Assembly: GCF_019061365.1 (NCBI RefSeq)
Contig: NZ_JAHPPD010000003.1
Span: 1 to 59,962 of the forward strand
Origin: Lentilactobacillus dabitei
GTDB lineage: Bacteria; Bacillota; Bacilli; Lactobacillales; Lactobacillaceae
Reading direction: 5' to 3'
Length of the DNA: 59,962 nt
This document shows, piece after piece, positions 25,732 through 43,642 of this stretch. The notes under the pieces were generated by a model that saw only the letters and a list, made by a program, of their open reading frames with translations, was not told where the DNA came from and searched no databases. Position 1 is the first letter of the stretch, and every line of letters starts with the position of its first letter. A program made the translations under genes and the position numbers.

Positions 25732-26628
25732 ATGAAACGGTTACCTTTACAAATGACGTTCTTTTCACAGGTGCATCCAGTAGCCTCGACAATCTACTTT
25801 GCTGAACTGATGGTTTGTCTGCTGCTCTTCAATCACGTGACTGTCGCATTAACAGAAATCGTTGGCCTGATCGTTTGTGGTTTCTATTACTTAGGCAAAG
25901 AATCGATGACTCAGCAATTAAAATTTGCCAGCAGCTTTTTGGTCCTGATTTTATTTTTTAATACTTTGTTAAATCAAAAGTTCCAGCCAATTCTTTGGCA
26001 ATTTCACTGGGGCGTTCTAACTTACAGATTTTCCTACTCGGCATTTCTTTATGGCGTTGCAATGGCGTTGGTTCTCATCTCAATGTTGTTTGTTTTTGCG
26101 TTACTCAATGCTATTCTGACCCCGAATCGCCTCATCTACGTCTTCTCACCGATCACCCCCAGGCTAGCAATGCTAGTATCCATTTCATTTAGCTTAGTGG
26201 CCAACTTTATCTTAAAATTCAAGCGACTCATCACATTACAAAAAACTAGGAATTTAGATGTGTCCAGCGGCTCCTTACTGACAAGGATCAAAAAAGTCCT
26301 GCACATCTTTGAAATCATGCTTCAGGATTCCCTTTCGTCGGCAATGGAAACGGCAAATTTGATGGATGCCCGGGGGTTCGGTGCTACCAAACGCACCCAT
26401 TATCGATCTTACCATTGGCAATCGTCCGATCTTGTTTTTATCTTATTTTCTTTCCTGCTATTATTAATGATTATTTATATCCGATTCCTCAACTTTGGTT
26501 GGAGTCGTTCAGTAGCGAATTTTACCAATATTTTTCACCCGGCGGATCTGTTGCCAATCGGCCTTTTATTAGTCCTCTTTTTATTACCCATTCTTTCTGA
26601 AGGGATCTATCGCGCATGCACAAATTAG
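25732..26628 (+). CDS. ECF transporter transmembrane component EcfT (CbiQ family)
   Basis: A 298-residue membrane protein with about six helices and the coupling region LITLQKTRNLDVSSGSLLTRIKK, followed by ANLMDARGFGATKRTHY, the characteristic Ala-Arg-Gly EcfT signature. EcfT couples the ATPases to the substrate-binding S component. The ATG at 25732 follows AAAGAGG; the upstream extension has no ribosome binding site. It overlaps the ATPase gene by 13 bp. Because it has its own dedicated ATPase and S component this is a group I (dedicated) ECF system. Confidence 0.9.
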   Translation: MKRLPLQMTFFSQVHPVASTIYFAELMVCLLLFNHVTVALTEIVGLIVCGFYYLGKESMTQQLKFASSFLVLILFFNTLLNQKFQPILWQFHWGVLTYRFSYSAFLYGVAMALVLISMLFVFALLNAILTPNRLIYVFSPITPRLAMLVSISFSLVANFILKFKRLITLQKTRNLDVSSGSLLTRIKKVLHIFEIMLQDSLSSAMETANLMDARGFGATKRTHYRSYHWQSSDLVFILFSFLLLLMIIYIRFLNFGWSRSVANFTNIFHPADLLPIGLLLVLFLLPILSEGIYRACTN

Positions 26629-28271
26629 TTTCTGTTCAGGATCTTTCATTCGCATATCCCGATCAGACCGTCAAAGTCTTGGATCACATTAACCTCACAA
26701 TCAACTCAGGTGACTTTCTGCTCATTGCCGGCAACACGGGCAGTGGCAAGACCACCTTGCTGAACCACTTCAAAAAAGAATTGATGCCACTGGGAAATCG
26801 TCAAGGATACATTACGATTGATGGGACCGCAATTGATGACTTAACCAAATTGCAAAGCGCCCAAACTGTCGGCTACGTTGCCCAAGACCCCCAGGTTCAG
26901 CCGGTGATGTCAAGGGTCATCGACGAACTGGCTTTTCCACTGGAAAACATCGGCTGTCCCAGTGACGAAATTGAACGACGAATCACCGAATTGAGTAACT
27001 TTTTAGGGCTGGATCAATCACTAAATCGAGAAATTAATCAACTTTCCGGCGGCCAACTCCAACTAGTTAACTTGGCTTCGGTGCTAATTCTGCGTCCCAA
27101 AATCATCTTGTTAGATGAACCGACCTCTCAATTAGATCCATTAACCGCCCAGAATTTTCTGAATGTATTATATCGTGTTCAGCGTGAATTGGGGATCACA
27201 ATTGTCTTGACAGAACATCGACTTAGCACCATCTCTAGTTTGGTCAATCGCATGATCCTTCTACAACACCAAACAATTACTTTCGATGGCTCACCAACAG
27301 ACGGCATCAAAGAGATGTTTAAAGATGATCGGCTGACCTACTTTATTCCATCAATTCCAAAGTTATTCTTAGCCAATCAAATCACAGTTGGATCCTTGCC
27401 AATTTCTGTCGCTCAGGGACAAGCTGCTATTCAAGCTGCCAACTTAAAATTCATCCCAACTGCTAAACCAACCGTTCACCAATCAAATAGTGAGCAGCAG
27501 CCGCTATTGACCGCCAAAAACATTTCATTTACCTTTGACGGAACCCGCAACGTGGTTGATCATCTGGATCTAACCGTTAATCGAGGGGATTGGTTAGCCA
27601 TCATCGGCAAAAATGGGTCTGGAAAATCCACCTTATTATCCTTACTGATCGGCCTCACAACGCCTCAACATGGCAAAATTAGATTCGAACAGCAGGTTGT
27701 TTGGAAAATCCGGACGGCGGATCGCATTAAGCGAATTTCCTTCCTGTCCCAAACCCCTAGCTTGCAATTTACTGCCGACAGTGTTCGCCAGGAGTTGGAA
27801 GTTCAGGCCAACCAACTCAAGCTGCGTGATCCAGCACAACAAATTAAGCAACTTGTCGCTAAATTCCATTTAGAAAAAATTCTCAATCAAAATCCATTTG
27901 ACATTAGTGGTGGTCAACAGCAGCTGCTCGGCCTGGCAATCGCGTTAATGGCTAAGCCGGACTTGCTTGTCTTGGATGAAGCAACCAAAGGGCTTGATCC
28001 TTATACCAAGGTAATGGTCGGTAATACTTTGAAAGAGGCTCAACAAAACGGCGTTACAATTATCATGGCAAGTCACGATATGGAATTTTGTGCAGCATTC
28101 GCTGATCACTGTACGTTCATGTTTGATGGTCATCTCAACACGTTGTTGCCCACCACGGCATTTTTTGCCAACAACTTCTTCTTCACAACGCCAATCAACC
28201 GAATTGTGAGGGATCAGGTGCCGAACGCTTTGTTGGTTAACGATCTTACTTTAGAATCTGAAGGGAGGTGA
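26616..28271 (+). CDS. ECF transporter ATPase with two fused nucleotide-binding domains
   Basis: A 551-residue fusion of two ABC ATPase domains (EcfA and EcfA'). Domain 1 (1-230) has Walker A AGNTGSGKTTLL, signature LSGGQLQLVNLA and Walker B ILLDEPTSQLDP; domain 2 (about 295-545) has Walker A GKNGSGKSTLL, signature ISGGQQQLLGLA and LLVLDEATKGLDP. It powers import through the EcfT and S components beside it. Such fusions are usual in dedicated ECF systems. Confidence 0.93.
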   Translation: MHKLVSVQDLSFAYPDQTVKVLDHINLTINSGDFLLIAGNTGSGKTTLLNHFKKELMPLGNRQGYITIDGTAIDDLTKLQSAQTVGYVAQDPQVQPVMSRVIDELAFPLENIGCPSDEIERRITELSNFLGLDQSLNREINQLSGGQLQLVNLASVLILRPKIILLDEPTSQLDPLTAQNFLNVLYRVQRELGITIVLTEHRLSTISSLVNRMILLQHQTITFDGSPTDGIKEMFKDDRLTYFIPSIPKLFLANQITVGSLPISVAQGQAAIQAANLKFIPTAKPTVHQSNSEQQPLLTAKNISFTFDGTRNVVDHLDLTVNRGDWLAIIGKNGSGKSTLLSLLIGLTTPQHGKIRFEQQVVWKIRTADRIKRISFLSQTPSLQFTADSVRQELEVQANQLKLRDPAQQIKQLVAKFHLEKILNQNPFDISGGQQQLLGLAIALMAKPDLLVLDEATKGLDPYTKVMVGNTLKEAQQNGVTIIMASHDMEFCAAFADHCTFMFDGHLNTLLPTTAFFANNFFFTTPINRIVRDQVPNALLVNDLTLESEGR

Positions 28272-28278
28272 TCAATGT

Positions 28279-28983
28279 TTGAGAAAAGTGTTGGAGATCA
28301 CCTATGTGTACCGATTGCTGATTGCCGTGCTTCTCATGGCAGCATTTCTAGTTTTGATACTATTGCTTAAAGGTCAACACTACCTGCTATTTATCTTCAT
28401 GATTCTAATATGTAGTATTCTCCCGGCATATTGGCGATTTGAACGAGAAACCATTAGCACCCAGACTTTGATGTTCATTGCTGTCTTAATTGCATTGGGA
28501 GTGGCTGGTCGGGTCCCACTGGCTTCAATTCCAGGGGTTCAAGCCGCCAGCTTCATCATCATTTTAAGCGGCATTAGCTTGGGACCGGAATTAGGATTCA
28601 TCACTGGCGCAACAACCGCCTTAGTTTCAAATATGTTTCTTGGTCAGGGGCCTTGGACGCCTTGGCAAATGGTCGCCTGGGGGCTGATGGGCTTAACTGC
28701 TGGGCTGTTGAGCAATACCAAGCTGAGTCACAGCCTGATATTTATGATTATCTTTGCCTTTATCTGGGGGTTCCTGTTCGGTTGGATTATGGACCTCTGG
28801 TATGCGCTGGCCTATGTCTCACCAATTACCGTCAAGAGTTTCTTTCTAGCATATGCTTCAAGCTTTTTGTTTGATCTTAATCACGCGATTTCAAATGCCG
28901 TCTTAATTGCCCTATTTTATAAAGGGTGGCAGAAGTTGTTCAATCGCTTAGTTAAGAAGTATCGAATTTTACCTACTAAATAA
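28279..28983 (+). CDS. ECF transporter S component, probable cobalamin/corrinoid uptake
   Basis: A 234-residue membrane protein with six to seven helices and the S-component features GPELGFITGATTALVSNMFLGQGPWTPWQMVAWGLMGLTAGLL. The start is a TTG at 28279 behind GGGAGGTG; an ATG four bases earlier is out of frame. The substrate is not readable from sequence, but the operon also encodes barrel-like and DUF4430 proteins and PduV and faces the B12-dependent pdu operon, so a corrinoid is the best inference. Confidence 0.75.
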   Translation: MRKVLEITYVYRLLIAVLLMAAFLVLILLLKGQHYLLFIFMILICSILPAYWRFERETISTQTLMFIAVLIALGVAGRVPLASIPGVQAASFIIILSGISLGPELGFITGATTALVSNMFLGQGPWTPWQMVAWGLMGLTAGLLSNTKLSHSLIFMIIFAFIWGFLFGWIMDLWYALAYVSPITVKSFFLAYASSFLFDLNHAISNAVLIALFYKGWQKLFNRLVKKYRILPTK

Positions 28984-29008
28984 TTCATATAAAAGGAATG
29001 GGTCATTC

Positions 29009-30052
29009 ATGAAATTAACAAGTAAATTATTATTAGTCTCCGCATCTGCTTTATTAACCTTTGGAGCTGTCCGCCCGGCCGTTACTGCCAGTGCTGCCAG
29101 CGTCAAGACTGCCAGCCGCAGTTATCAAAATACCAAGATCAAAGCGAGCTACCGCTATGCTAAAAAGATGCTCGTTAAAAATAAAACTGGTTTGTCCGGA
29201 AAGACTGCTTATATTTTCAGTAAGAAAGCTTACCCAACAACCGGAGCTGCTGGGGGTTACGCAGACTTCCTATTAAGCTTAAAAGGTTGGGGATACAAAT
29301 TCACAACTAACCAAAAGAAACGGGTTGCTTCAAGCCTGGTCTTAAACAGCAAGAGTACCCCAGCCGATTTAGCTAATGCTATTCAAGGGCTCAAGTCAAT
29401 TGGCATGAACCCAACCAAGTTCCGTCGTTCTGGCACTAAAAAGGCCGTCAACTTGGTATCAGTTTTATACCGCAAATCAATGAGTAACCAAACCGTGAAC
29501 GTTAAGAGTCAGGTACTGTTGGCGCTCACAATGAGCTCATCATTCAAACGGCCATCGACTGCCAAGTTTTCAATTAACAGCTTAAGTAATTCTATTGTTA
29601 AGAATCAATTGAGCAACAACGGTTGGGCATACAATAATAAGCTCGACACAGTTGATTCAGATACAACCGCAATGGCTGTCACCGCATTAGTTCACGGCAA
29701 GGCCAATGCGAGTGCTTCAGCGATCACCAAGGGCCAATCATACCTGAAGAGTGCTGTTTACCCATCTGGTGCCTATGGTTACACCTTCAATGGCAAGAAC
29801 ATCCCTAACGGTAACTCAACTGCCGAAGCGATCATTGCATTATCAACCAAGCAAAATACGTTGAAATACGTCAATGGCACCAGCAAGTCAAGCCAAGCTG
29901 CCTCACCATTGTACGCAATGTTCACTTACGTTAATAAGACCGGTTCAATCAAAGGCGCTGCCAGCCAGTTGATCGGCGTCGGCCAGATTAACTTGGCAAC
30001 CGCTGCGTACCGTCAAGCTTTGAATCATAAATCAGTTTATACAATCAAGTAA
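29009..30052 (+). CDS. Secreted alpha/alpha-barrel-like (prenyltransferase/squalene cyclase-like repeat) protein
   Basis: A 347-residue exported protein with a signal peptide (MKLTSKLLLVSASALLTFGA, cleaved near TASAAS). The mature part is built of repeating helix pairs with alternating short turn motifs, for example GAAGGYADFLLSLKGWGY, NNGWAYNNKLDTVDSDTTAMAVTALVHGK and YGYTFNGKNIPNGNSTAEAIIALS, the pattern of alpha6/alpha6 barrels. Human intrinsic factor and transcobalamin have such a barrel as their N-terminal domain. It lies between the S component and the DUF4430 gene. A role in capturing corrinoid at the surface is inferred from fold resemblance and context. Confidence 0.7.
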   Translation: MKLTSKLLLVSASALLTFGAVRPAVTASAASVKTASRSYQNTKIKASYRYAKKMLVKNKTGLSGKTAYIFSKKAYPTTGAAGGYADFLLSLKGWGYKFTTNQKKRVASSLVLNSKSTPADLANAIQGLKSIGMNPTKFRRSGTKKAVNLVSVLYRKSMSNQTVNVKSQVLLALTMSSSFKRPSTAKFSINSLSNSIVKNQLSNNGWAYNNKLDTVDSDTTAMAVTALVHGKANASASAITKGQSYLKSAVYPSGAYGYTFNGKNIPNGNSTAEAIIALSTKQNTLKYVNGTSKSSQAASPLYAMFTYVNKTGSIKGAASQLIGVGQINLATAAYRQALNHKSVYTIK

Positions 30053-30077
30053 TTCTTAAGTGAGAGGAAAAGATTTC

Positions 30078-30830
30078 ATGAAAAAAGGACGCATTGTTGG
30101 CATTATTTTAGCATTTGTCCTGGTCATCGGAATTGGCTTTGGGGTTCAGCAAGTGATCGCTAACCGAGGAGATCATAAGCCGGCAACCGCCCTTTCGTCC
30201 AAGGCGGCCAGCTCGTCTTCACAAAAAGCGGCCAGCCAAAGCTCGAATGCCAAAGCAAATCCTAAGAAGAACAAAGCTAAGGAAAACTCACGTAAGTCTA
30301 AAGCTTCCTCAACATCTGGCAAATTAACTAAGAGCAGCAAATCAGCGAACCACGATACCACTGCGAACAAGAATGCCAATTCCAAATCAGCAACCAGTCA
30401 TTCAGCCGCCACTTCGACTCAATCACAGTCGGCCAAAACTTCGACTCACAAACATGCTGGCAGCAGTGCAAATGCAACCAACGGCCACCATGCAAAAAAA
30501 GCCGCTGCCAAAAACGATTCAATTGGAACAGCGTATATCAAGGTGTCTGGTTACAAAAAGACCTTATACGCCGGTCACATGAACATCAGCAAGTCCGCCA
30601 CCGCATTTTCACTGCTAAAACGGACCCACTTAAAGCTGGTCTATCAAAGTAGTCCCCACGTTTATGTCAGTTCAATCAACGGCTTAAAGCAAAATGACAT
30701 TAAGGTCGGCAGTGGTTGGATGTACTCAGTTAACAGCAAATTCGTTGATAAAGCTGCCGATCAGAAGCGCATTACCCCTGGCGATACCGTTCACTGGTAC
30801 TTCTCAGTAAACGGCCTCAGCGGTAAATAA
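30078..30830 (+). CDS. Surface protein with DUF4430 (transcobalamin C-terminal-like) domain
   Basis: A 250-residue protein with an N-terminal membrane anchor (IVGIILAFVLVIGIGFGVQQV), a long Ser/Lys/Ala/Asn-rich stalk (about 30-150), and a C-terminal DUF4430-type domain (about 155-250) with VYVSSINGL, GSGWMYSVN and ITPGDTVHWYFS. This domain is found as the beta domain of mammalian transcobalamin and intrinsic factor. The stalk would hold it outside the membrane in the cell wall. The ATG at 30078 follows GAGAGG. Binding of corrinoid is inferred, not seen. Confidence 0.78.
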   Translation: MKKGRIVGIILAFVLVIGIGFGVQQVIANRGDHKPATALSSKAASSSSQKAASQSSNAKANPKKNKAKENSRKSKASSTSGKLTKSSKSANHDTTANKNANSKSATSHSAATSTQSQSAKTSTHKHAGSSANATNGHHAKKAAAKNDSIGTAYIKVSGYKKTLYAGHMNISKSATAFSLLKRTHLKLVYQSSPHVYVSSINGLKQNDIKVGSGWMYSVNSKFVDKAADQKRITPGDTVHWYFSVNGLSGK

Positions 30831-30851
30831 TGAATGAAAAGGTGAATTCTT

Positions 30852-31280
30852 GTGAAAAAGGCAATTTTTATTGGTGCAATCGGCTGTGGTAAAACAACGT
30901 TAATTCAGCGCTTGGATAAGTTGAAAATCTCGTACAACAAGACTCAGACCCTTGAGTTCTATTCAAATATTATCGATACGCCTGGTGAATACGTTGAACA
31001 CCGCGCGATGTACTCTAACCTGATGACGTCGGCCATTGATGCCGATGTGGTTGTGTTAATGCAAAGCGCCCTTGATCCCCGAATTGTTTTGCCAACTGGG
31101 TTCAGTACCATGTTTACCAAGCCAACGGTTGGAATCGTCACTAAGATTGATATTGCAACTCCAGATCAGGTTGACCTGGTAAAAGATCGCCTTATCGATG
31201 CTGGCGCTGGTAAAGTGTTTGAGGTGTCAGCCGTGACCGGTAAAAATGTCAGTGAATTCACACAGTATTTGCAAGAGTAG
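30852..31280 (+). CDS. pduV: EutP/PduV family small GTPase
   Basis: A 142-residue Ras-like GTPase of the EutP/PduV family. Walker A is GAIGCGKTT, the switch II region IIDTPGEYVEH, and the guanine-specificity motif TKID. PduV is associated with the outside of the Pdu microcompartment in Salmonella. The start is a GTG at 30852 behind AAAGGTG. It is the last gene of the ECF/DUF4430 operon on the plus strand, not of the pdu operon, which is unusual. Confidence 0.88.
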   Translation: MKKAIFIGAIGCGKTTLIQRLDKLKISYNKTQTLEFYSNIIDTPGEYVEHRAMYSNLMTSAIDADVVVLMQSALDPRIVLPTGFSTMFTKPTVGIVTKIDIATPDQVDLVKDRLIDAGAGKVFEVSAVTGKNVSEFTQYLQE

Positions 31281-33238: not shown

Positions 33239-33592
33239 TTATGTTCTTGTGATTTTTGGAATATCAAAATCCAACAGATCGTGAAGCTTTTCAACCACTG
33301 CTTTGAGTGCTGATTCTACTTCTGAAACTTCGCCGATTATGACCACTGAACCACTAAATCGATCAATGAATCCAAGGGTTACATTGCTTGATTTGGTGGC
33401 AATATCACCCGCAATAATTGATGCTTCACTTGGCGTAATTGTCAGAATTCCAATGGCATCCCGATGAGCCTGTAGTCCGAGCTTTTCATAAATATCAGGC
33501 GTAGGATTGGCAACAATGTGGGCCAGGGTCACCTGTTTACCAGGAACGTATTCTTGAATACTCCGTTCAATATCTCTAGCCACTTTTACCAC
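33239..33592 (-). CDS. pduU: Microcompartment shell protein PduU
   Basis: A 117-residue circularly permuted BMC-domain protein closely resembling Salmonella PduU ([35 protein letters not shown], ending ITRT). It forms a hexameric shell tile with a small N-terminal beta-barrel cap. The start is one of two GTG codons (33592 or 33583). It lies between pduW and the flavin oxidoreductase gene. Confidence 0.95.
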
Positions 33593-33613
33593 CCCATCCT
33601 GTTTTTTATCTGT

Positions 33614-34798
33614 TCAGCCGATTACTTTGGCCGTTTCTCGAGCAATAATTAACTCTTCATCGGTTGGAATTACGACAACTTTCACTTTGCTATCTGAAGT
33701 TTGAATTTCAATATCATTTGCTTGATTCTTTGCTTCGTCAATCTTGATGCCTAAATATTCAAGTCCTTCACAAACCCGAGCTCTAATTGGAGCAGAATGT
33801 TCGCCAACCCCAGCGGTGAAGGATAAGACCTTCAAGCCACCAAGATCTGTGGTATAAGCACCAATAAATTGTTGAATTTGATGAACATAGACATCAAGTG
33901 CCAATTTAGCACGCTGATTACCTTCAGCTTCTGCCTTCAAAACATCCCGAATATCGTTAGATACCCCTGAAATTCCTAAGACACCAGATTCGTGGTTCAA
34001 CATGCTCCTGACATCTTCAGAGTCCAGATGCTCCTTTTCTTCAAGAAATGGTAAAATTTCCGGATCAATATCACCTGAACGAGTTCCCATCACCAGTCCA
34101 GCCAGTGGGGTAAAGCCCATTGAAGTGTTGACCGATCGACCATCCCTGATTGCACAGATGCTGGCACCATTTCCTAAATGACAAGAAATAAGCTTGTCAG
34201 CAACTTGTTCGCCAAAACGATCACGAACAACGCTATAAATATATTGATGTGACTGGCCATGGAATCCATAACGCCGGATCCCATATTTTTCAATATATTT
34301 ATACGGTAAGGCGTATGTGTAAGCCTTTGGCGGCATTGTGCTGTGAAACGACGTATCGAATACGGCAACTTCTCGCGCTTCCGGTAACAATTTCTCAAAG
34401 GCTTCAATTCCTAACAAATTAGCCGGATTGTGTAAGGGAGAAAGCACTGACAATTCAGAAATTCGCTTGGCAACATCATCGTTAATCTCAACGGATTGCG
34501 TATAATAACTACCCCCATGAGAAACCCGATGACCAATGCCAACAATTTCCGACTTATCTTTGATTACACCACTTTCATTCAACGCTTGGATAACGAGCTC
34601 AGTTGCTTCCGTGTGATCTTTAACCGATTCGGTGGTGTTGTGCTTAGCGCCATCTGCCGTCTGGTAAGTAAAGACCGCATCAGGATGACCAATTCGATCA
34701 ACCATTCCATGAATTAAGACCTGCTCATCGGGCATCAAATATAGCTTGAACTTCAGCGATGAACTCCCAGCGTTGATTGCAAGAATTTTCTCTACCAT
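33614..34798 (-). CDS. pduW: Propionate/acetate kinase PduW
   Basis: A 394-residue ASKHA-fold kinase that makes ATP from propionyl- or acetyl-phosphate. Signatures: LAINAGSSSLKFKLY at the start, VFDTSFHSTMPPKAYTYALPY, RRYGFHGQSHQYI, SCHLGNGASICAI and MGFTPLAGLVMGTRSGDIDP. Its place after pduQ supports the propionate kinase role. General acetate kinase is the close alternative. Confidence 0.93.
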   Translation of the reverse strand: MVEKILAINAGSSSLKFKLYLMPDEQVLIHGMVDRIGHPDAVFTYQTADGAKHNTTESVKDHTEATELVIQALNESGVIKDKSEIVGIGHRVSHGGSYYTQSVEINDDVAKRISELSVLSPLHNPANLLGIEAFEKLLPEAREVAVFDTSFHSTMPPKAYTYALPYKYIEKYGIRRYGFHGQSHQYIYSVVRDRFGEQVADKLISCHLGNGASICAIRDGRSVNTSMGFTPLAGLVMGTRSGDIDPEILPFLEEKEHLDSEDVRSMLNHESGVLGISGVSNDIRDVLKAEAEGNQRAKLALDVYVHQIQQFIGAYTTDLGGLKVLSFTAGVGEHSAPIRARVCEGLEYLGIKIDEAKNQANDIEIQTSDSKVKVVVIPTDEELIIARETAKVIG

Positions 34799-34827
34799 AC
34801 TGTGCTTCCTCTCTGTCTCTAATTTAA

Positions 34828-35949
34828 TTATTTGATGACTTTATCGTAAATTGCTTTCAAATCATCATCAGTTGGTACGACAGGATTTCCTGGGAAAGTA
34901 CCGTCCTTCTTTGCATCAGCAACCACAACGTCCGTCTTCTTTTCAGCTTCTGCTGGGTCGATTCCGAACGCCCGTAAGGTTTGTGGGCAATCCATTTGAA
35001 CCATCATTTGACGAATCTTAGCAGCAATTCGTTGAACGGCAATTCGATCACTCATCCCTTGGGATACCAAGCCGGTCTTCTTGATGGCAGCACCGTACTT
35101 GTGCAAGGCTTCTTCTGAATGACTGGCATTGTATTCAACAACGTGTGGCAAAAGCATTGCGCAAGCCAAACCATGCGGAACATGGAAGTTAGCACCCAAT
35201 TGATGGGCAAGTGAGTGGCAAATCCCTAAACCGGCATTGTTAAACGCAATTCCAGCAGCACATGATGCTTCGTGAACAACTTTACGAGCTGCTTCATTAT
35301 CACCATGTTTGTAGCATTCTACCAAACAGTGAGTAATAACATCGATTCCCTTTTCAGCTAAAGCATCAGTGATGGTATTAGCATCCCGTGAAACCAGTGA
35401 CTCAAGTGAGTGAGTTAAAACGTCCAATCCCGAGAAGGCTGTGACACTCTTAGGGGCCGTCATCACAAGTTCAGGATCAAGTAACGCAATATCTGGAGTC
35501 AAATGATCTTTAATAATTGGCATCTTGGTATGATTCTTTGTATCAGAAACCACACTGGTGTTAGTTACTTCTGAACCAGTTCCACTCGTTGTTGGAATAG
35601 CAATAAATTCATCAATCGGATGTTGATAAACCTTCTCACCAAAGAAACGAATGGCTTTGCCAGTATCAATAGCTGAACCACCACCGATTCCAATCATCAC
35701 ATTAGGCTTAACTTTACCGAACTGTTCAACGCCTTCCATGATATTATCCAAAGGTGGATCAGGCTTTACGTCAGAAAAGATTGAAACATCATTGTTACCA
35801 TCAACTTCACCCTTAATCTTGTCTAGGGTGGGGGTATTTGGCAAAAACGCGTCACAAACCATTAAAATCTTTTTGCCTTTTAAGGTCTGCAGCCAGTCTA
35901 AGCTGTCATTACCCGAGTAAATTTTAGTTGGAATTTGAATTTCTTCCAT
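34828..35949 (-). CDS. pduQ: 1-propanol dehydrogenase PduQ, iron-type alcohol dehydrogenase
   Basis: A 373-residue group III alcohol dehydrogenase which reduces propionaldehyde to 1-propanol and recycles NADH. The nucleotide-binding IGIGGGSAIDTGKAI, the TTSGTGSEVTNTSVV segment, and the iron ligands in SGLDVLTHSLE and CHSLAHQLGANFHVPHG are present. It follows pduP by 6 bp. The enzyme would also reduce 3-hydroxypropionaldehyde to 1,3-propanediol. Confidence 0.95.
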   Translation of the reverse strand: MEEIQIPTKIYSGNDSLDWLQTLKGKKILMVCDAFLPNTPTLDKIKGEVDGNNDVSIFSDVKPDPPLDNIMEGVEQFGKVKPNVMIGIGGGSAIDTGKAIRFFGEKVYQHPIDEFIAIPTTSGTGSEVTNTSVVSDTKNHTKMPIIKDHLTPDIALLDPELVMTAPKSVTAFSGLDVLTHSLESLVSRDANTITDALAEKGIDVITHCLVECYKHGDNEAARKVVHEASCAAGIAFNNAGLGICHSLAHQLGANFHVPHGLACAMLLPHVVEYNASHSEEALHKYGAAIKKTGLVSQGMSDRIAVQRIAAKIRQMMVQMDCPQTLRAFGIDPAEAEKKTDVVVADAKKDGTFPGNPVVPTDDDLKAIYDKVIK

Positions 35950-35955
35950 CTTATA

Positions 35956-37398
35956 TTAGACCTCCCATGAACGCAATGAGAATCCTTCTGGGCAATTGAA
36001 GCGACGACGGCGAGTAAATGTCTTGGCAGTTGTTGTTCCTTCACCAGTTGGAGTAGCAATCGTTAACGCAGCGTCTCCACTCCAGTAACCATTATCGCCA
36101 ACACCAGTTGCAGCAAATGTTGGGCCGTTAGCAACAAAGATTGACGTATTCATTCGGTGAGCTGCTTTATTAATGTGCGGAATATTTTCTGAGTGAATTG
36201 AGGCAGTATGGTGATTACCCATTTCAACTTCAATTGCGGTCTTCAAAACAGCATCGAATGTTGGGCAGGAAACAATTGGCAATAATGGCATTAACATTTC
36301 AGTCTTTACCAATGGGTGATCTTTATCGGCCTCAAAGATCACAACGGTTGGATGGCCTGTGTAAGATACACCAGCTTCATCCAGGATAAAGGTTGCATCC
36401 TTACCAACAAATTTACGATCAGGGGCACCATTTTCTTGAATCGTCATATGAGCAATTTCATCAATCTTACTCTGATCCGTTAACAAGAAGGCACCATCAT
36501 TTTGCATTTTTTCAATCAGTTGATCCTTAACATCGGCTTGGACAACAACTTCCTTTTCAGCAGTACATAGGATGTTGTTATCAAATCCACATGAAGTGAT
36601 AATATCATGAGCGGCCAAATCAAGATCGGCAGTATCATCAACCATGGCAGGTGGGTTACCAGCGCCGGCACCAATTGCTTTTTTACCACTAATTAATGCT
36701 TGGTGAACAACGGCAGGACCACCAGTTACAGCCAACATGTCAACATCTGGGTGGTGCATCATCTGTTGAACCGATTCAATGGATGGGGTTGCCAACGATA
36801 CAACCAAATTCCGCAGACCGGTTGCTTTGTATACGAATTCATTTAAGTGCTCGATCATCCAACGCGTAATGTTCTTAGCACCTGGATGGGCACCAAAGAA
36901 TAAGACATTGCCACCAGCAAGCATCATGATGGAATTGTTGATAACCGTTTCGCCGGGATTTGTACTTGGGCCAACACCACCGATAACGCCAAATGGTGTG
37001 TACTCATACATGATCATCCCACCATCGCCAGTTTCAACGTCTGGCTTCAAAATCTCAGGGCCAGCAGTGTTGTACAAGGCATTCTTCAGCTTGGTTTCCT
37101 TGGCTTCAACAGTTCCCATTCCGGTTTCATCCCGAGTTGCTTGGGCAATGTAGTGAATCTTTGGACCGAAGCCATCTTTAATTGCTTGAATGACCTTTTC
37201 ACGAAATGCCATAGGTTTGTCAGCGTAAATTTCTTGAGCTTGTTTTGCAGCTGCAATCGCTTCATCAACAGTTTCAAAAATTCCGTTTCCTAAACCTGTG
37301 GGTTGGGCTTCATTATTATCAGAACCAGATTGCGATTGACCGCTTAATTCTTCTTTTAGAATTTTTCTGATTGCTTCTTCAATATTTTGTTCTTGCAT
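35956..37398 (-). CDS. pduP: CoA-acylating propionaldehyde dehydrogenase PduP
   Basis: A 480-residue acylating aldehyde dehydrogenase producing propionyl-CoA. The N-terminal amphipathic helix NIEEAIRKILKEELS is the known encapsulation signal that takes PduP into the shell. The catalytic cysteine lies in CGFDNNILCTAEKEVVV and the cofactor region in TPFGVIGGVGPSTNPGET. It appears full-length. Confidence 0.96.
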   Translation of the reverse strand: MQEQNIEEAIRKILKEELSGQSQSGSDNNEAQPTGLGNGIFETVDEAIAAAKQAQEIYADKPMAFREKVIQAIKDGFGPKIHYIAQATRDETGMGTVEAKETKLKNALYNTAGPEILKPDVETGDGGMIMYEYTPFGVIGGVGPSTNPGETVINNSIMMLAGGNVLFFGAHPGAKNITRWMIEHLNEFVYKATGLRNLVVSLATPSIESVQQMMHHPDVDMLAVTGGPAVVHQALISGKKAIGAGAGNPPAMVDDTADLDLAAHDIITSCGFDNNILCTAEKEVVVQADVKDQLIEKMQNDGAFLLTDQSKIDEIAHMTIQENGAPDRKFVGKDATFILDEAGVSYTGHPTVVIFEADKDHPLVKTEMLMPLLPIVSCPTFDAVLKTAIEVEMGNHHTASIHSENIPHINKAAHRMNTSIFVANGPTFAATGVGDNGYWSGDAALTIATPTGEGTTTAKTFTRRRRFNCPEGFSLRSWEV

Positions 37399-37401
37399 AT
37401 C

Positions 37402-37884
37402 TCACATACGCTCCTTAGAAAATTCTTGAACGGCTGCTTCGCAAATGGCTTGATCTTCTTCGATTAAGCCACCACTACAACCGATAGCACCAATCATCTG
37501 TCCATCCTCGATAAGTGGAATGCCCCCTGGGAATGAGACGAGCTTTCCATCAAGCATCGTTTCCATCTGATATAAAGGACCACCAGGTTGAATATCTTTA
37601 CTAATGTCCTTGGTTGGCTCTTTCATCGCAATGGCAGACCATGCTTTCTTTGGCGCTAATGTGGAGCTAACCAAGTTTGCATTTGGCATATGGTACAACA
37701 TCTGAACGGTTGTCGTGATATCCATAATACAAATTGTGACTCCAACGTGTAATTCGTCTGCCTTAGCAACAGCTGCGTCGATTACTTTTTCCATCTTATG
37801 ACGGTCAAATGCATTTGAAGCGGTTGCATTTGATCCCTTAGATAAAACTTCTTTTACGATTTGATTAATTTGTTCTTTATCCAT
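37402..37884 (-). CDS. PduO C-terminal/GlcG-HbpS-like protein with encapsulation-type helix
   Basis: A 160-residue protein. The C-terminal domain (about 35-160: VTICIMDITTTVQMLYHMPNAN, SFPGGIPLIEDGQMIGAIGCSGG) is the GlcG/HbpS domain that forms the C-terminal half of Salmonella PduO, which binds heme. Here it is a separate gene and carries a short N-terminal helix DKEQINQIVKEVLS of the encapsulation type. I chose the ATG at 37884 as the start because the AGAGGGG site is better spaced for it than for the ATG two codons earlier. It lies between pduO and pduP. Confidence 0.8.
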   Translation of the reverse strand: MDKEQINQIVKEVLSKGSNATASNAFDRHKMEKVIDAAVAKADELHVGVTICIMDITTTVQMLYHMPNANLVSSTLAPKKAWSAIAMKEPTKDISKDIQPGGPLYQMETMLDGKLVSFPGGIPLIEDGQMIGAIGCSGGLIEEDQAICEAAVQEFSKERM

Positions 37885-37890
37885 GGTCAT

Positions 37891-38466
37891 TTACCCCTCT
37901 ATCGCTTTACAGTATCGTTGAACAACTTTCTCGATAACCTTTTCCAGATAGTCCTGATGGTCTTCAGAACGGGCCATAATATACATGAAATCAGAAAGGC
38001 GATTGACATATCTCTCGATTTCCGGTCTTACGGGATTAACCTTCATAAACGCTACCAATTGTCGTTCAGCTCTTCTACATACCGTTCGACAAACATGAAG
38101 TTGAGCACCGGCAAGACTCGAACCCGGTAAAATGAAACTGTTAACTTTAGGCAATTGAGCAGTATAGTCATCAATAATTGACTCAAGATAATGAACATCG
38201 TCATCCGTTATAATTCTGCTTTGGGATCGGAACTTTTCAGCATCTTTAGTGGCAATTTCTCCCTGCAGGAAAAACATTCGGTATTCAACTCGCTGCAAGA
38301 TTTTCTTGTTGCGCTCGCTGATACAAAACTTATCAGCCAGTGAAATGTTGGCATTCAGTTCATCAAACGTTCCATAAGTTGAGACCCGCAAAGAGTCTTT
38401 AGATACTCGCTCGCCGTCAAAAAGGCTTGTTGATCCTTTATCGCCGCCCTTTGTGTAAATGGCCAT
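37891..38466 (-). CDS. pduO: ATP:cob(I)alamin adenosyltransferase PduO
   Basis: A 191-residue PduO-type adenosyltransferase that makes adenosylcobalamin for diol dehydratase. TKGGDKGSTSLFDGERVSKDS is the ATP-binding signature and CRTVCRRAERQLVAF with the following NRLSDFMYIMAR is the corrin-binding region. It lacks the C-terminal HbpS domain of enteric PduO, which is encoded by the next gene. Confidence 0.95.
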   Translation of the reverse strand: MAIYTKGGDKGSTSLFDGERVSKDSLRVSTYGTFDELNANISLADKFCISERNKKILQRVEYRMFFLQGEIATKDAEKFRSQSRIITDDDVHYLESIIDDYTAQLPKVNSFILPGSSLAGAQLHVCRTVCRRAERQLVAFMKVNPVRPEIERYVNRLSDFMYIMARSEDHQDYLEKVIEKVVQRYCKAIEG

Positions 38467-38484
38467 TTAAAATCCCTTCTTTTT

Positions 38485-38754
38485 TCATTTGTCGAATCGA
38501 TCAATAATTCCTACAATCGAACAATCATTTACATCGTTTTGGACTTGACTGACCGTAGCTCGTCTTGCACCGGCACCACGTACTAATAGTACATATTCGC
38601 CAATTCCGGCTCCAACTGTATCAGCAGCGACTTCTTCGGACTTCGTAGGCTTGCCTTCAGAATCCACTGGCTGAACAATCATTAGTTTTCGGCCAACCAA
38701 TGAACGATCTTTTTGGGTAGCTACGACGCTCCCCATTACTCGTGCCATATACAA
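38485..38754 (-). CDS. pduN: Microcompartment vertex protein PduN
   Basis: An 89-residue EutN/CcmL-type pentameric protein that closes the shell vertices. Signatures are ARVMGSVVATQKDRSLVGRKLMIVQP and DTVGAGIGEYVLLVRGAGARR. The start is a TTG at 38754 or the ATG at 38748. It overlaps the end of pduM. Confidence 0.93.
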   Translation of the reverse strand: MYMARVMGSVVATQKDRSLVGRKLMIVQPVDSEGKPTKSEEVAADTVGAGIGEYVLLVRGAGARRATVSQVQNDVNDCSIVGIIDRFDK

Positions 38755-39239
38755 TTTTCATCAGTCCTCATTTGTATTATCATTTGTTTCAGCTGACTAA
38801 TTTGTTCAGCCTCACCAGTAAGCTTTTGATTCGGAGTTACAACAACAATTGATTTATCCGGCAGCGTAGCAAGATCTGAACGACTGATTGCCTTCTGATA
38901 AAATGAAGTGACTGCCCGCTTTTGATCAACGACAAATGATACAGGCCAATCTAACAACATTTTTTTTGGAATAAAGTTGACCATCGATGAACTAATCTGA
39001 AAAGTAAAGTTTACTTGGAAACTAATCCCTTGTAATATCCACTTTGTCCAGGAATCGTCCAGATTCAGCCGGTAGATGTTGGCCAACAGTGGAATTGTCA
39101 CGTTATCAATGGTCACATTGGCATAATCTGTATAAACACCCTGATCGGGCACTAGTCCCTCACTGGAATAATCAACTTCGTAAGATTGGTGTTCGCGCTG
39201 CCTGATTTTAGCCAGTACTTGCTCAACAATATGATCCAT
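38736..39239 (-). CDS. pduM: Microcompartment protein PduM
   Basis: A 167-residue protein of the PduM family, needed for proper microcompartment assembly in Salmonella, function not settled. The N-terminus MDHIVEQVLAKIRQRE is an amphipathic helix of the encapsulation type. I took the ATG at 39239 with GGTGG close upstream; a TTG at 39251 is possible. It overlaps pduN. Confidence 0.85.
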   Translation of the reverse strand: MDHIVEQVLAKIRQREHQSYEVDYSSEGLVPDQGVYTDYANVTIDNVTIPLLANIYRLNLDDSWTKWILQGISFQVNFTFQISSSMVNFIPKKMLLDWPVSFVVDQKRAVTSFYQKAISRSDLATLPDKSIVVVTPNQKLTGEAEQISQLKQMIIQMRTDENCIWHE

Positions 39240-39273
39240 TTTGGCCACCAACCTTTGCTATTTGTTCAAAATC

Positions 39274-39915
39274 TCAACTTTCCTTTGGAAGAATAATGTG
39301 ACCAACCGTGTCACCACGAACATTAGCTGCACTTGCTTCATCAGTATCCAAATGCATTTCTGTGACAAAATCTTTTCTTGGACGACAAACAACATCATCA
39401 TACGTTGTCCGGCGTTCTGGCGAATCGATTCGTACAGAAACAATATCTCCTAGTTTGACACCAAAGCGTTGAGCATCTTCTAAACTCATATGGATGTGGC
39501 GTTTTGCAACAATGACTCCTTGAACCGTTATTTCAGCATCTGGCGTCTTAATTTTAACTGATGGGGCCCCATCGAGGTGACCAGACAAGCGAATGGGCGC
39601 ATCAATTCCAAGTGTAAAACACTCTGAACGGGCAATTTCAACTTGTGAATGTGAACGATTTGGCCCAAGCACACGAACATTTTCAATCTTTCCAGAAGGT
39701 CCAATCAGTGTTGCTGTTTGGTTGGTTGCAAATTCTTCTGGCTGCTTTAATCGTTTTAGTATCGTCATCTTTTGATTTGGAAATAATGTGTTATAGTCCT
39801 CATCGGTTAAATGGATATGATGATTTGATACACCAATTGGAATTCGATAAGGGTCATTTTGCTCATCAATTACTTGACGAATTATTTGTCGAATCTTATC
39901 TTCAGTAATTTCCAT
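39274..39915 (-). CDS. pduL: Phosphate propanoyltransferase PduL
   Basis: A 213-residue PduL phosphotransacylase that converts propionyl-CoA to propionyl-phosphate. The zinc-binding histidine motifs GVSNHHIHL and KRHIHM and the C-terminal TEMHLDTDEASAANV are visible. The N-terminal helix EDKIRQIIRQVIDEQ is the encapsulation peptide. Confidence 0.95.
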   Translation of the reverse strand: MEITEDKIRQIIRQVIDEQNDPYRIPIGVSNHHIHLTDEDYNTLFPNQKMTILKRLKQPEEFATNQTATLIGPSGKIENVRVLGPNRSHSQVEIARSECFTLGIDAPIRLSGHLDGAPSVKIKTPDAEITVQGVIVAKRHIHMSLEDAQRFGVKLGDIVSVRIDSPERRTTYDDVVCRPRKDFVTEMHLDTDEASAANVRGDTVGHIILPKES

Positions 39916-39947
39916 AAATCACTAACCGTCCTTAGATTGAATTTGAA

Positions 39948-40229
39948 TTATTTTTTGTCAATATTTGGCAAGATACCTTCAACTTCTGAATGTGGACGAG
40001 GAATGACGAATGAAGTTAATACTTCACCAACGTTTTCTGCAGCAGAAACTCCTGCGTCAACGGCAGCTTTAACGGCACCAACATCACCACGGACCATAAC
40101 AGTTACCAACCCACTACCAATCTTTTCTTGACCAATTAAAACAACGTTAGCTGCTTTAACCATTGCATCGGCTGCTTCGATAGAGCCAACTAATCCTTTT
40201 GTTTCGATCATTCCAAGTGCGTTATTCAT
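39948..40229 (-). CDS. pduJ: Hexameric microcompartment shell protein PduJ
   Basis: A 93-residue single BMC-domain protein ([43 protein letters not shown]), nearly identical in its core to PduA of this locus. The two probably arose by duplication and form the bulk shell tiles. The good ribosome binding site is AGGAGG. Confidence 0.95.
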
Positions 40230-40250
40230 AATAAATTCCTCCTAATTTGT

Positions 40251-40895
40251 TTACTTCTTAGTTTGTTTTCTAGGTGTTCGTCGAGTATTTGACCGCTTAC
40301 TACGTGCTGCCTGACTCGTAGACTTACTAGTTGTTTTAGAACTAGTGGACTTTGTGGTGGCAGCCCTCGTAGTTGCCGGCTTATTATCTGACTTATCGGC
40401 AGGCTTTGTTGCCGCTTGAGCTGTCGGCTTTGTTTCAGACTTTGACTCATCCTTCTTAGTAGAAGCAGAACCAGGCGTGGTACTTGACCCACCATTAGAA
40501 CCACCACCTTTTGGACCGTCATCTTTTGGATTGGCGTTGGTAGCTGATCCGCCATCCGGTCCATCATCATCTGGGCCATCGTCATCGGAATCATCATATT
40601 CAGTTGCAGCATCAAATTTACTCTTGATGGCATCATTTTTACCTAACTCGCTAATTCCCGGTGCAGGATTGGCAATTACCATCGAGCCAGCAACCCGATC
40701 GCCCATTTCGCCTTTCCCAGCATCAATCGCTGCTTCAACAGCGGCAACATCGCCAGTAACTGAAACGGTAATCCAACCATTACCTTTTGTATTCTCAAGA
40801 AACTTTAATTGAACTTGAGCAGTTTTAAGCATTCTATCAGCAGCAACGATCGCACCAGACAGACCCTCGACTTCTAGATATCCAATTGATTCCAT
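40251..40895 (-). CDS. pduK: Microcompartment shell protein PduK with long low-complexity tail
   Basis: A 214-residue protein. Residues 1-85 are a BMC domain (IGYLEVEGLSGAIVAADRMLK, VSVTGDVAAVEAAIDAG). Residues 95-140 are rich in Asp, Gly and Pro, and 140-214 rich in Ser, Thr, Lys and Arg, ending very basic. The iron-sulphur cysteine motif reported for enteric PduK is absent. The charged tail may touch cargo or the outside of the shell. It is the first gene after pduH. Confidence 0.9.
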   Translation of the reverse strand: MESIGYLEVEGLSGAIVAADRMLKTAQVQLKFLENTKGNGWITVSVTGDVAAVEAAIDAGKGEMGDRVAGSMVIANPAPGISELGKNDAIKSKFDAATEYDDSDDDGPDDDGPDGGSATNANPKDDGPKGGGSNGGSSTTPGSASTKKDESKSETKPTAQAATKPADKSDNKPATTRAATTKSTSSKTTSKSTSQAARSKRSNTRRTPRKQTKK

Positions 40896-40912
40896 AAATC
40901 ACTCACCTGTCC

Positions 40913-41266
40913 TTATTTCTTAAATGGTACTCCTTTGACCAATCTTGCGGCATTGGCACCGATCTTTCTGACATTTGTCGGATTGTCGATAGGAACCACA
41001 AAAAGTGGCTCATTTGGGTTTAAATTTTTGTAATGAACCACAATTTGTTGATCGTCAAACGAGATGCCAACCGATAAACGTGAGGCCACTGCCGCTTGAT
41101 AGGCTCGATCGACAGCTGAACTAGAATCCGCTACCTGTATCATTTGGAAAGGAATTTGCTCCTCTTCGATTCCATGTAGCATTGGTTCCAAATTGCCAGG
41201 AAGTTTGTTATTCAATTTGTCGGATAAAGCTATTAAAATTGCCGGTCTATCATTATCGATTGCCAT
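40913..41266 (-). CDS. pduH: Diol dehydratase reactivase small subunit PduH
   Basis: A 117-residue reactivase beta subunit (RPAILIALSDKLNNKLPGNLEPMLHGIEEEQIPFQ, SSAVDRAYQAAVASRLSVGISF). It works with PduG to exchange damaged cofactor on diol dehydratase. It begins 3 bp after the pduG stop. Confidence 0.94.
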   Translation of the reverse strand: MAIDNDRPAILIALSDKLNNKLPGNLEPMLHGIEEEQIPFQMIQVADSSSAVDRAYQAAVASRLSVGISFDDQQIVVHYKNLNPNEPLFVVPIDNPTNVRKIGANAARLVKGVPFKK

Positions 41267-41269
41267 GTG

Positions 41270-43099
41270 CTATCCTCTTTTCTCGCTTGAATATGAAAGA
41301 ATTAACCCAGTTGCAACGGCGTTTCGTGGGCCTTCAATTGACCGAATGTTTCCACGCCCAGCTACCAAGTTATAATGTGACAATGCATCAGTCACAAGTT
41401 GAGGAATTTCAAAATCAAGAGCAGATCCTCCAACGATCACAACAAACGGAATATCTCGAATGTTTCCTGTTGGACTAACATGTCTCAAAGCCCGGAGTGC
41501 ATTCGTTACAAATACTCGTTTCTTGGCAGTTTGTCGGACAATCTTGACTTTCTCAATACTCAGATTACCCGGAAGTGGCTCATAACCATCTGGCTTAATT
41601 GCAACAACTCTCGCAAACAAATTTGATGGCAAGGGTTTCTCAAAGAATTGAACTGAGCCATCTTCATGTCTCAACTGAAAGAGATTTTCTACTTTAGCAA
41701 GCGGATAACGCTTAATGTCCTCAGCCAAGTAAATATCATCTAGTCCAAGCTCAGAGTTGATTATCATTGTAACCATATCCCCAGCACCAGCAAGATGAAT
41801 TGCGACCTTTTTATCCTCTTTATTAATAATTGATGCGTCAGTAGACCCAGCACCTAAATCTAGGATCGCCATTGGTTTACTGGTACCTGGAGTTGTTAAT
41901 GCGCCTAATATTGCAGCTTCAGCTTCAGCCCCACCAATTTCAACAGGAACGCGCAAATCTTGTTCAATCAAGTTCGCAATAATTTGCATTTGTAAATGAT
42001 CCGATTTAACCATTGCAGCAATTCCAACTGCTTGCTCCATGGAGAACTCGCCGGCAAGTCCGCCAGTAACCTTAACCGGAACGGAGGTATTAACTGCAAG
42101 TAAATCCTGGATAGCAATATCTTGATTTTGCTTGCCGGTCAAATCAGCCATCGTTTGCCGAACCTTTTCAAGCATACCGCCAACGTTAGTTCCTGACTTA
42201 CCAGTGATATCATCAATTGAATCAAACTCATTAACCGCTTTCATAATTGCTTCAGCACCCGCGGCAACATCAACTTGAGCTTTTCCTTTATTACCAGTAA
42301 TATAAACAGTTCCGGCAGGAATTACCCGAGCTTTAACATCACCTTTTGGTGTTTTAATCACAACCGCTGAGCGATTTCCAATCAATGCCCTGGCAACCGG
42401 TACAATGTTTTTCGTTTCTTCAGATGTTAATCCGAATAGAGTCGCAATCCCATACGGATTAGATAATTGAGAAATAACTTTACCCTGTGGGGCAACTTCA
42501 ACAGCTGCTAGCATCCCTAATGGAACTTTATCAATTCGGGCAACTTCATCAACAATCGGAATTTTGTTTTGTAATCGATTATCAACGAGGACACCATCAT
42601 CACTTTGCATAATCGCAGCGGTAATATGGAAGCCCGATGCGACATATGCATCAATTAGCTTTGCCGCATCAGCAAAATCAACATCTTTAGGAATCAAAAC
42701 AATGTAGTTGCGTGAATGATCACTTTCATGAAGTAATTGTAAAAGTTGAACCGTATATCCAGAACCCGTTCCTACACCACCTGGAGTACCAGGATTATGA
42801 CCAATCATCGTTGACTCGGTAATAATCGTTTCAGTAATCGTTTCCATCGCAACATCACCAATAACTGGTGTTGCTTCATTAATTCTTATCAAATTAACTG
42901 ACGACAGATCGGTATGAGTAGAATTCAAAACATTGTCAATTGACTTTTTAACGCCAATCAAATTCTGCTTTGTTCCTTTAATTCCAGTTGTAGCTGCAAT
43001 TCCCGATCCCAGAAATTTAACTTCGCCACTATCAGACACATCAGCGAGGGCAACTTCAGTTGAAGAATTACCAATATCAACACCAATCACACGTGTCAT
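41270..43099 (-). CDS. pduG: Diol dehydratase reactivase large subunit PduG
   Basis: A 609-residue ASKHA-fold ATPase. VIGVDIGNSSTEVAL and LDLGAGSTDASII are its phosphate-binding loops, and GHNPGTPGGVGTGSG is a family signature. It releases damaged cobalamin from PduCDE with ATP. It appears full-length. Confidence 0.96.
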   Translation of the reverse strand: MTRVIGVDIGNSSTEVALADVSDSGEVKFLGSGIAATTGIKGTKQNLIGVKKSIDNVLNSTHTDLSSVNLIRINEATPVIGDVAMETITETIITESTMIGHNPGTPGGVGTGSGYTVQLLQLLHESDHSRNYIVLIPKDVDFADAAKLIDAYVASGFHITAAIMQSDDGVLVDNRLQNKIPIVDEVARIDKVPLGMLAAVEVAPQGKVISQLSNPYGIATLFGLTSEETKNIVPVARALIGNRSAVVIKTPKGDVKARVIPAGTVYITGNKGKAQVDVAAGAEAIMKAVNEFDSIDDITGKSGTNVGGMLEKVRQTMADLTGKQNQDIAIQDLLAVNTSVPVKVTGGLAGEFSMEQAVGIAAMVKSDHLQMQIIANLIEQDLRVPVEIGGAEAEAAILGALTTPGTSKPMAILDLGAGSTDASIINKEDKKVAIHLAGAGDMVTMIINSELGLDDIYLAEDIKRYPLAKVENLFQLRHEDGSVQFFEKPLPSNLFARVVAIKPDGYEPLPGNLSIEKVKIVRQTAKKRVFVTNALRALRHVSPTGNIRDIPFVVIVGGSALDFEIPQLVTDALSHYNLVAGRGNIRSIEGPRNAVATGLILSYSSEKRG

Positions 43100-43120
43100 G
43101 CTAAAACCCCTAACTAGATA

Positions 43121-43642
43121 TTAATTATCACCTTTAAGTTTCTTGTTCTTCTCATAGTTTTCAGCAGCTTCTGCAAACCAATTTGCACAAACAGGTGCAT
43201 TATATTTATCTCGCAGTTCGCTCGACATATCTAATAATTCTTGCTTACTTGAACGATAAGGACGTAAAGCATTATATAGTTGAAGAAGCCGATCATCAGG
43301 AATTTGAGTTAATTCTGCAGCTCTCTGGAAGTTCTTCTGAATTGCAACTCGTCCAGCGCTAGCAGCAATTTGCCCCTGCATACGCAGTGTATCTGGGGTA
43401 ATTCGTAAATCCTTTGGGCCAACAGTGCCATCAACAACATTATCTAGTGTGATGTCATGTAAGCTCTTTCCTGTTGGGGATTTAACCTTATCAGGATGTT
43501 TTTCAAAAAGTGGATAATCATTTCGACCTAGTTCACTATCAGAATTTGTCGGAGTTGAAGTTGATGTTGAACTGGATGCTGATGAGTTTTCATCTTTCAA
43601 CTGACTCATGATTTTATTTACTAATGAATCTACCTCGCTCAT
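43121..43642 (-). CDS. pduE: Propanediol dehydratase small subunit PduE
   Basis: A 173-residue gamma subunit of B12-dependent diol dehydratase. NDYPLFEKHPDKVKSPTGKSLHDITLDNV and PYRSSKQELLDM are conserved. The N-terminal VDSLVNKIMSQLKDE helix resembles an encapsulation sequence, followed by a Ser/Thr linker. Confidence 0.95.
   Translation of the reverse strand: MSEVDSLVNKIMSQLKDENSSASSSTSTSTPTNSDSELGRNDYPLFEKHPDKVKSPTGKSLHDITLDNVVDGTVGPKDLRITPDTLRMQGQIAASAGRVAIQKNFQRAAELTQIPDDRLLQLYNALRPYRSSKQELLDMSSELRDKYNAPVCANWFAEAAENYEKNKKLKGDN

Follow-up and report, generated by a model that had tools for sequence, protein, structure and literature searches.

A predicted two-part, intrinsic-factor-like corrinoid binder encoded with a CbrT-like importer in Lentilactobacillus dabitei

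The operon and its products

We analysed a 59,962-nucleotide stretch of the Lentilactobacillus dabitei genome (assembly GCF_019061365.1, contig NZ_JAHPPD010000003.1, positions 1 to 59,962 of the forward strand; hereafter the window) and an operon in it that is likely to encode a corrinoid uptake system. To our knowledge, little is known of how Gram-positive bacteria capture B12 ahead of energy-coupling factor (ECF) importers. An earlier note, made from the sequence alone, had described an operon of EcfT, a fused double ATPase, an S component, a helix-repeat protein of the alpha/alpha type (here the toroid), a DUF4430 protein and PduV. The list of open reading frames (ORFs) confirmed all six on the plus strand in this order, and neighbours overlap or nearly abut (Table 1). 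The start codons given in the note also fit. An in-frame ATG is present at 30078 inside ORF 30060-30830, and EcfT probably starts at about 25732, because the alignments of several relatives begin at residue 36 or 37 of the longer ORF 25624-26628. The EcfT-like ORF matched no Pfam or NCBIfam model. A promoter scan (18 sites, 11.3 expected) and a terminator scan (5 sites, 6.4 expected) gave no clear signal.

The S component passes the Pfam cut-offs of PF07155 (riboflavin-type) and PF12822 and scores below the cut-off of the NCBIfam FolT subfamily model, all of which are broad models. As a single sequence, its best match among Protein Data Bank (PDB) sequences was 6FNP chain A (3.7e-10); a profile of nine members matched 6FNP at 6.1e-18, and the sole other PDB sequence at E up to 10 scored 0.6. 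6FNP is the structure of ECF-CbrT, a transporter of both cobalamin and cobinamide that rescues B12-dependent growth of E. coli and is active in proteoliposomes (PMC5997447; here and below, papers are cited from the portions of their text available to us). The earlier note had allowed for an S component with another substrate; by its sequence it is CbrT-like, despite the riboflavin-type Pfam label, and is predicted to transport corrinoid. Hydrophobic windows were found at residues 4-36, and an N-terminal extension (28279-28450, about 55 residues, hydrophobic) falls outside the match to crystallised CbrT.

In the DUF4430 protein, a single hydrophobic segment at the N terminus is followed by a Ser/Ala/Lys-rich linker of about 120 residues and by the DUF4430 domain (PF14478, 5.6e-16). 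The domain was modelled with a pLDDT of 90.5. In Foldseek, ranks 1-19 for this model were transcobalamin, haptocorrin, intrinsic factor and the bacterial structure 3u7z, and VIA gave Z scores of 12.3-14.5 for the same carriers and 3u7z, with 7.4 for the best other chain. The model thus places the domain confidently in the beta domain type of these carriers.

The toroid protein begins, by eye, with a signal-peptide-like N terminus and matched no Pfam or NCBIfam model. It is 97% identical to a toroid of Lentilactobacillus rapi. The mature protein is strongly basic (isoelectric point 10.3), and no anchor is visible. Its AlphaFold2 (AF2) model (pLDDT 87.4, pTM 0.85) is an alpha/alpha toroid, as the earlier note had anticipated. 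Terpene cyclases led the Foldseek list for this model; rat transcobalamin came 24th (E 1.1e-3) and intrinsic factor 47th, and VIA gave a Z score of 24 to squalene-hopene cyclase. The fold class is therefore right, yet the match does not single out B12 carriers. The note's proposal that the two folds of the human carriers lie here in two genes was supported, with a correction: the DUF4430 half matches those carriers, but for the toroid the likeness to terpene cyclases is no weaker than that to transcobalamin. Since terpene cyclases are the solved toroids closest to it, we only infer that this half binds corrinoid, and we assign its putative role as the alpha half from context, not from the fold match.

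Conserved linkage, riboswitches and B12-dependent enzymes

The order EcfT-EcfAA-EcfS-toroid-DUF4430 was found repeatedly across Lactobacillaceae, so the gene arrangement is not due to chance. The toroid query matched 22 of 251 Lactobacillaceae genomes, six of them solely because larger proteins contained a partial match (E 1e-6 to 1e-15); DUF4430 was present in all 22 and in 66 of the 251 overall. Among named genomes the query found 53 loci, chiefly in Lentilactobacillus, Levilactobacillus and Secundilactobacillus, with 54 toroid genes above 45% identity. DUF4430 lay within 450 bases downstream of 44 of these 54 genes, and EcfS within 150 bases upstream of 33. Six fused upstream genes were detected in this count, which is an underestimate.

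These fused genes mark a second type of locus, in which toroid and DUF4430 form one protein of about 700-850 residues with DUF4430 at the C terminus; usually a toroid gene follows, and often then a DUF4430 gene. A profile of other toroids (A6 minus the L048 row) detected the toroid in 13 of 13 fused proteins at E 1e-22 to 1e-31, values that refer to the 13-sequence set; the window toroid is one row of A6. Toroid proteins of other genera carry an LPXTG-type anchor at the C terminus, and their genes precede DUF4430 and ECF genes. Profile A6, whose source toroids are all neighbours of DUF4430 or fused with it, matched 48 of 239 genomes in a phylum sample, and DUF4430 was present in all 48. With one toroid place (the best) taken from each genome, and with selected DUF4430 places, at least 45 of the 48 had DUF4430 within 10 kb of the toroid on the same strand, and at least 11 apparently had both in one open frame (judged from equal open-frame length plus proximity). 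The earlier note had raised conserved co-occurrence of these genes with S components as a check; the recurring operon order in Lactobacillaceae bears it out, and toroid and DUF4430 occur jointly across the phylum sample.

Scans with Rfam models placed a cobalamin riboswitch directly upstream of the fused gene in all 13 loci scanned (L048, L057, L075, L077, L079, L083, L086, L087, L098, L100, L105, L113 and L118). The 13 do not count as independent, since L048 and L086 come from one genome, as do L079 and L083, and L057 and L118 from two strains of one species. In L113, no toroid gene lies beside the fused gene within the stretch covered. Two loci from other genera, L041 and L042, carry pduV, toroid, DUF4430 and ECF genes all behind one cobalamin riboswitch. 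At L092, an adenosylcobalamin (AdoCbl) riboswitch (RF01482, 79 bits, 10542-10693) was observed downstream of a DUF4430 gene and before a PduQ-like ORF. The genome of the window itself yielded a single sub-threshold cobalamin riboswitch match (26.2 bits), which precedes what looks by eye like an alcohol dehydrogenase-like ORF.

We then compared the distribution of DUF4430 with that of B12-dependent enzymes. The B12-dependent ribonucleotide reductase RTPR was matched in 49 of the 251 Lactobacillaceae genomes; three of these fell short of the family cut-off and were excluded, and DUF4430 was present in all 46 that were used. It directly follows the RTPR gene in at least 18 of these 46, a floor that comes from comparison with 25 hand-picked DUF4430 places. 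For the 56 genomes with RTPR or diol dehydratase, 54 had DUF4430, compared with 12 of the 195 others (p 2e-40). RTPR or dehydratase was present in 18 of the toroid genomes.

CbrT-like S components show the same association. Locus L111 has the order RTPR, DUF4430 protein (with a lipobox by eye), S component and cobalamin adenosyltransferase. Matches to the L111 S component occurred in 72 of the 251 genomes, 63 of which also had DUF4430 (p 2e-45), and 60 of 77 places with this type of S component were within 6 kb of DUF4430, 27 of them within 300 bases. Together, riboswitches in relatives, B12-dependent enzymes and CbrT-like S components are strong contextual evidence for corrinoid. We also observed that small, exported-looking DUF4430 genes directly precede CbrT-like S components at L108, L111 and L112; at L108 and L111 they stand behind the gene for the B12-dependent ribonucleotide reductase.

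Relatives of the toroid were found on 7 of 72,556 plasmid records; the window's own DNA had no copies on plasmids at the megablast level. On pMF1298-5 of Lactiplantibacillus plantarum, the homologous operon adjoins cobS and a second S component, and further along lie nrdJ, an adenosyltransferase gene and a histidine phosphatase gene, with transposase genes in between. Identity between window and plasmid is 58% for the toroid, 53% for the DUF4430 protein, 78% for cobS, 60% for the AIRS-type gene and 81% for the second S component. The position of the operon beside nrdJ and salvage genes on a plasmid suggests that the capacity to use B12 can pass as a unit from one lactobacillus to another. The RefSeq label 'fucose-binding lectin II' on the plasmid toroid (L119, 7950-9002) looks like a misannotation.

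Proposed mechanism and alternatives

We consider it likely that the operon is a corrinoid uptake system in which a two-half, intrinsic-factor-like binder feeds a CbrT-like ECF importer. The secreted toroid and the membrane-tethered beta domain would be the halves of the binder, closing on a corrinoid outside the membrane, with the corrinoid itself bringing them together. The corrinoid would then be passed to the CbrT-like S component, powered by the dedicated EcfT/EcfAA' module, and the vitamin would supply the neighbouring pdu dehydratase and a B12-dependent ribonucleotide reductase that is encoded elsewhere in the genome. We propose ligand-driven assembly at the membrane because the domains of human transcobalamin, when made separately, show lowered affinity for cobalamin and assemble on its addition, and because the beta domain binds cobalamin alone (PMC5599065). 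Release is a puzzle: human carriers hold B12 and hardly let it go without proteolysis (PMC5997447), and the binder of an importer must release it. Release would also be easier from a split binder, given its lowered affinity. The Gram-positive surface trap that the earlier note had put forward is thus supported by context, by the predicted folds and by the CbrT-like S component, with binding as a prediction. If the halves do close on corrinoid, the pair would be a naturally separable bacterial relative of intrinsic factor and would give experimental access to the trapping and release of B12.

A number of results weigh against this interpretation. For the proteins, the closest solved structures to the toroid are terpene cyclases, animal B12 carriers were not among the 50 VIA matches listed for its model (a listing that does not preclude matches to them), its 347 residues include no cysteine, and sequence searches with either half returned no match to solved transcobalamin or intrinsic factor. 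For the linkage, 10 of the 54 toroid genes, including two directly behind EcfS, have no DUF4430 gene in the 450 bases downstream, and a profile of window-type toroids alone (A3) misses the toroids in the 13 fused proteins, also when filtering is switched off. Against a strict tie between importer and DUF4430 stand nine genomes with CbrT-like S components that lack DUF4430, and 17 of the 77 places without a DUF4430 gene near by; uptake by ECF-CbrT is itself described without an accessory protein in the available text of PMC5997447. DUF4430 was present in 2 of 14 control genomes, Methanosarcina acetivorans and Lactococcus lactis, the latter of which may count against the proposal. With regard to control, Rfam found no riboswitch in the window at gathering score and, at a loose E-value, solely weak matches to unrelated, mostly eukaryote-type families; no cobalamin riboswitch was found at 8 of 8 direct counterparts of the operon, or at five (L039 and L043-L046) of the seven ECF loci of other genera (L039 and L041-L046). 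With regard to demand, 12 of the 66 DUF4430 genomes and 4 of the 22 toroid genomes have neither RTPR over the cut-off nor diol dehydratase. Finally, the host genome has cbiD (CbiD, contig C153), with adjoining ORFs that read by eye as cbiT, cbiE, cbiC and cbiB, and therefore probably makes corrinoids; uptake would then be an addition to synthesis. CbiD was found in 5 of the 22 toroid genomes.

A bolder form of the uptake model is possible, though we hold it only tentatively. The toroid may be diffusible, because it has a signal-peptide-like start and no visible anchor, and it could act as a 'corrinophore' that docks on the tethered beta half only when loaded, because the corrinoid would complete the interface. 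The same beta domain in the PocR-like regulator of the window would report corrinoid to the pdu genes. If true, this would be a ligand-gated two-part receptor with a secreted protein in the role of a siderophore, and one fold would serve both capture and sensing.

The cargo could instead be a compound related to B12 and not the complete vitamin, such as cobinamide, pseudo-B12 or a lower-ligand precursor of the alpha-ribazole type. The cobS, cobC-like and CblS/CblT-like genes in the window and beside the plasmid operon would fit such a cargo, as would the transport of cobinamide by ECF-CbrT (PMC5997447). A separate CblT-like S component is available for the lower ligand, however (52193-52711; naming as in PMC6722938), and cobinamide or pseudo-B12 would refine the corrinoid uptake model rather than compete with it; we regard this alternative as unlikely.

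In another alternative, the DUF4430 protein is the sole corrinoid receptor, with the toroid as a helper at the cell wall whose ligand is peptidoglycan, a glycan or something else and not B12. DUF4430 accompanies CbrT-like S components in many genomes without a toroid, as the counts of 66 and 22 in 251 genomes reflect; the beta domain of human transcobalamin suffices for binding cobalamin (PMC5599065; structure 5np4); the basic charge of the toroid would suit retention in the wall; and among the VIA matches are several of the many toroid folds that act on glycans. We nevertheless find a helper quite improbable, given that all 48 toroid genomes of the phylum sample hold DUF4430, at least 45 of them near by, that toroid and DUF4430 are joined in one protein at other loci and that the same two folds together enclose B12 in the human carriers. 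We consider it very improbable that the toroid lies here by accident and is a secreted enzyme of the class II terpene cyclase or prenyltransferase-like kind: squalene-hopene cyclases and drimenyl diphosphate synthases are its best structure and sequence matches, but it looks exported, its sequence lacks an intact DxDD, which we take to be the acid motif of such cyclases (DVDDT in one squalene-hopene cyclase repeat, DLDIT in the aligned toroid profile and DSDTT in the window protein), and such an enzyme would leave the linkage to DUF4430 and B12 genes without explanation.

Neighbouring genes and known systems

The B12-dependent dehydratase locus that had been noted near the operon is present, with a small subunit in the pdu cluster (Table 1). 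The salvage genes beyond it include one match over its cut-off (TIGR00317) and one below (TIGR03162), and their CblT-like S component is separate from that of the operon. Between the two groups lies an AraC-type, PocR-like regulator, which matched the PocR model NF047788 in the helix-turn-helix region only (104 bits, below the cut-off of 500) and may possibly sense corrinoid through its DUF4430 domain. It belongs to a published type, because AraC-SLBB fusions in Lactobacillus were already reported in 2007 (PMC1796856); a 2011 paper on L. reuteri PocR describes a helix-turn-helix domain, and the term 'DUF' is absent from its available text (PMC3162504). A second AraC-DUF4430 regulator was observed at L002 (294-1379, contig C194), where it adjoins an ORF that looks EutJ-like by eye. 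The window also holds a short CRISPR array (24699-24997; five repeats, 61-base spacing) next to minus-strand Cas3 and Cse1 genes.

Table 1. Positions of the operon genes and of related features in the window
Feature	Position	Strand	Basis
EcfT-like transmembrane component	25732..26628	+	Alignment start of relatives; plasmid relatives annotated ECF component T
Fused double ECF ATPase	26616..28271	+	PF00005 twice, 1.5e-60; TIGR04520, 1.1e-94
CbrT-like S component with hydrophobic N-terminal extension of about 55 residues	28279..28983	+	Match to 6FNP chain A
Secreted alpha/alpha toroid, proposed alpha half of corrinoid trap	29009..30052	+	AF2 model; DUF4430 neighbour
Membrane-tethered DUF4430 protein, proposed beta half of trap	30078..30830	+	PF14478, 5.6e-16; domain model
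PduV/EutP GTPase, end of operon	30852..31280	+	PF10662, 1.2e-53
pdu microcompartment gene cluster, B12-dependent consumer	33239..47259	-	Bacterial microcompartment (BMC) shell, phosphate propanoyltransferase and adenosyltransferase matches
B12-dependent dehydratase small subunit	43133-43525	- (in pdu cluster)	PF02287
AraC-type PocR-like regulator with C-terminal DUF4430	47572..48690	+	PF12833; PF14478, 3.9e-7
Salvage/nucleotide-loop genes: cobC-like, cobS, AIRS-type (CblS-like), S component (CblT-like)	49985..52711	-	PF00300, PF02654, PF00586, PF12822

Part of this picture has been drawn before, and the idea is less new than the earlier note implied. Burroughs et al. (2007) described toroid-SLBB fusions and operons with CbiO/CbiQ-like genes and predicted B12 scavenging (PMC1796856), and the related ECF genes on pMF1298-5 have been named CbrV, CbrU and CbrT, alongside CblT, CblS, CobS and CobC (PMC6722938). 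Priority is thus partly lost. In the open-licence literature we found no earlier report of the split, two-gene form and no binding test of bacterial toroid or DUF4430 proteins; the split, together with the linkage to riboswitches and CbrT, is apparently new. The words riboswitch, CbrT and PocR are absent from the text of Burroughs et al. (PMC1796856). Like the SLBB clade of that paper, the window encodes an exported SLBB-type protein in an operon with CbiO/CbiQ-like genes. The clade as described in the available text comprises toroid-SLBB fusions and SLBB pairs, not two halves as separate neighbours, and its hosts usually lack key B12 synthesis genes (PMC1796856), whereas the genome studied here has cbiD.

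The Cbr ECF genes of pMF1298-5 belong to a homologous operon that includes the toroid and DUF4430 genes, although these two go unmentioned in the available text of the plasmid paper (PMC6722938). ECF-CbrT of Lactobacillus delbrueckii has a homologous S component; in the window, the S component comes with its own ECF module, the N-terminal extension and a toroid gene. The L. delbrueckii order nrdJ-cbrS-cbrT-pduO corresponds to that of locus L111 (PMC5997447), and by its position CbrS would be a DUF4430 protein, so that a name already exists at a DUF4430 position. The available text of the CbrT paper mentions cbrS once, and its Discussion is silent on the function of the gene (PMC5997447).

There is also a parallel in architecture with the animal carriers intrinsic factor, transcobalamin and haptocorrin, which likewise combine an alpha/alpha toroid with a DUF4430-type beta-grasp domain. 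In the window, the two halves are separate ORFs (29009-30052 and 30060-30830) and not one chain, and the toroid is free of cysteine, whereas the alpha domain of transcobalamin has three or four disulfides (PMC11107200). The beta half appears to be tethered to the membrane, and an ECF importer would take the place of endocytosis.

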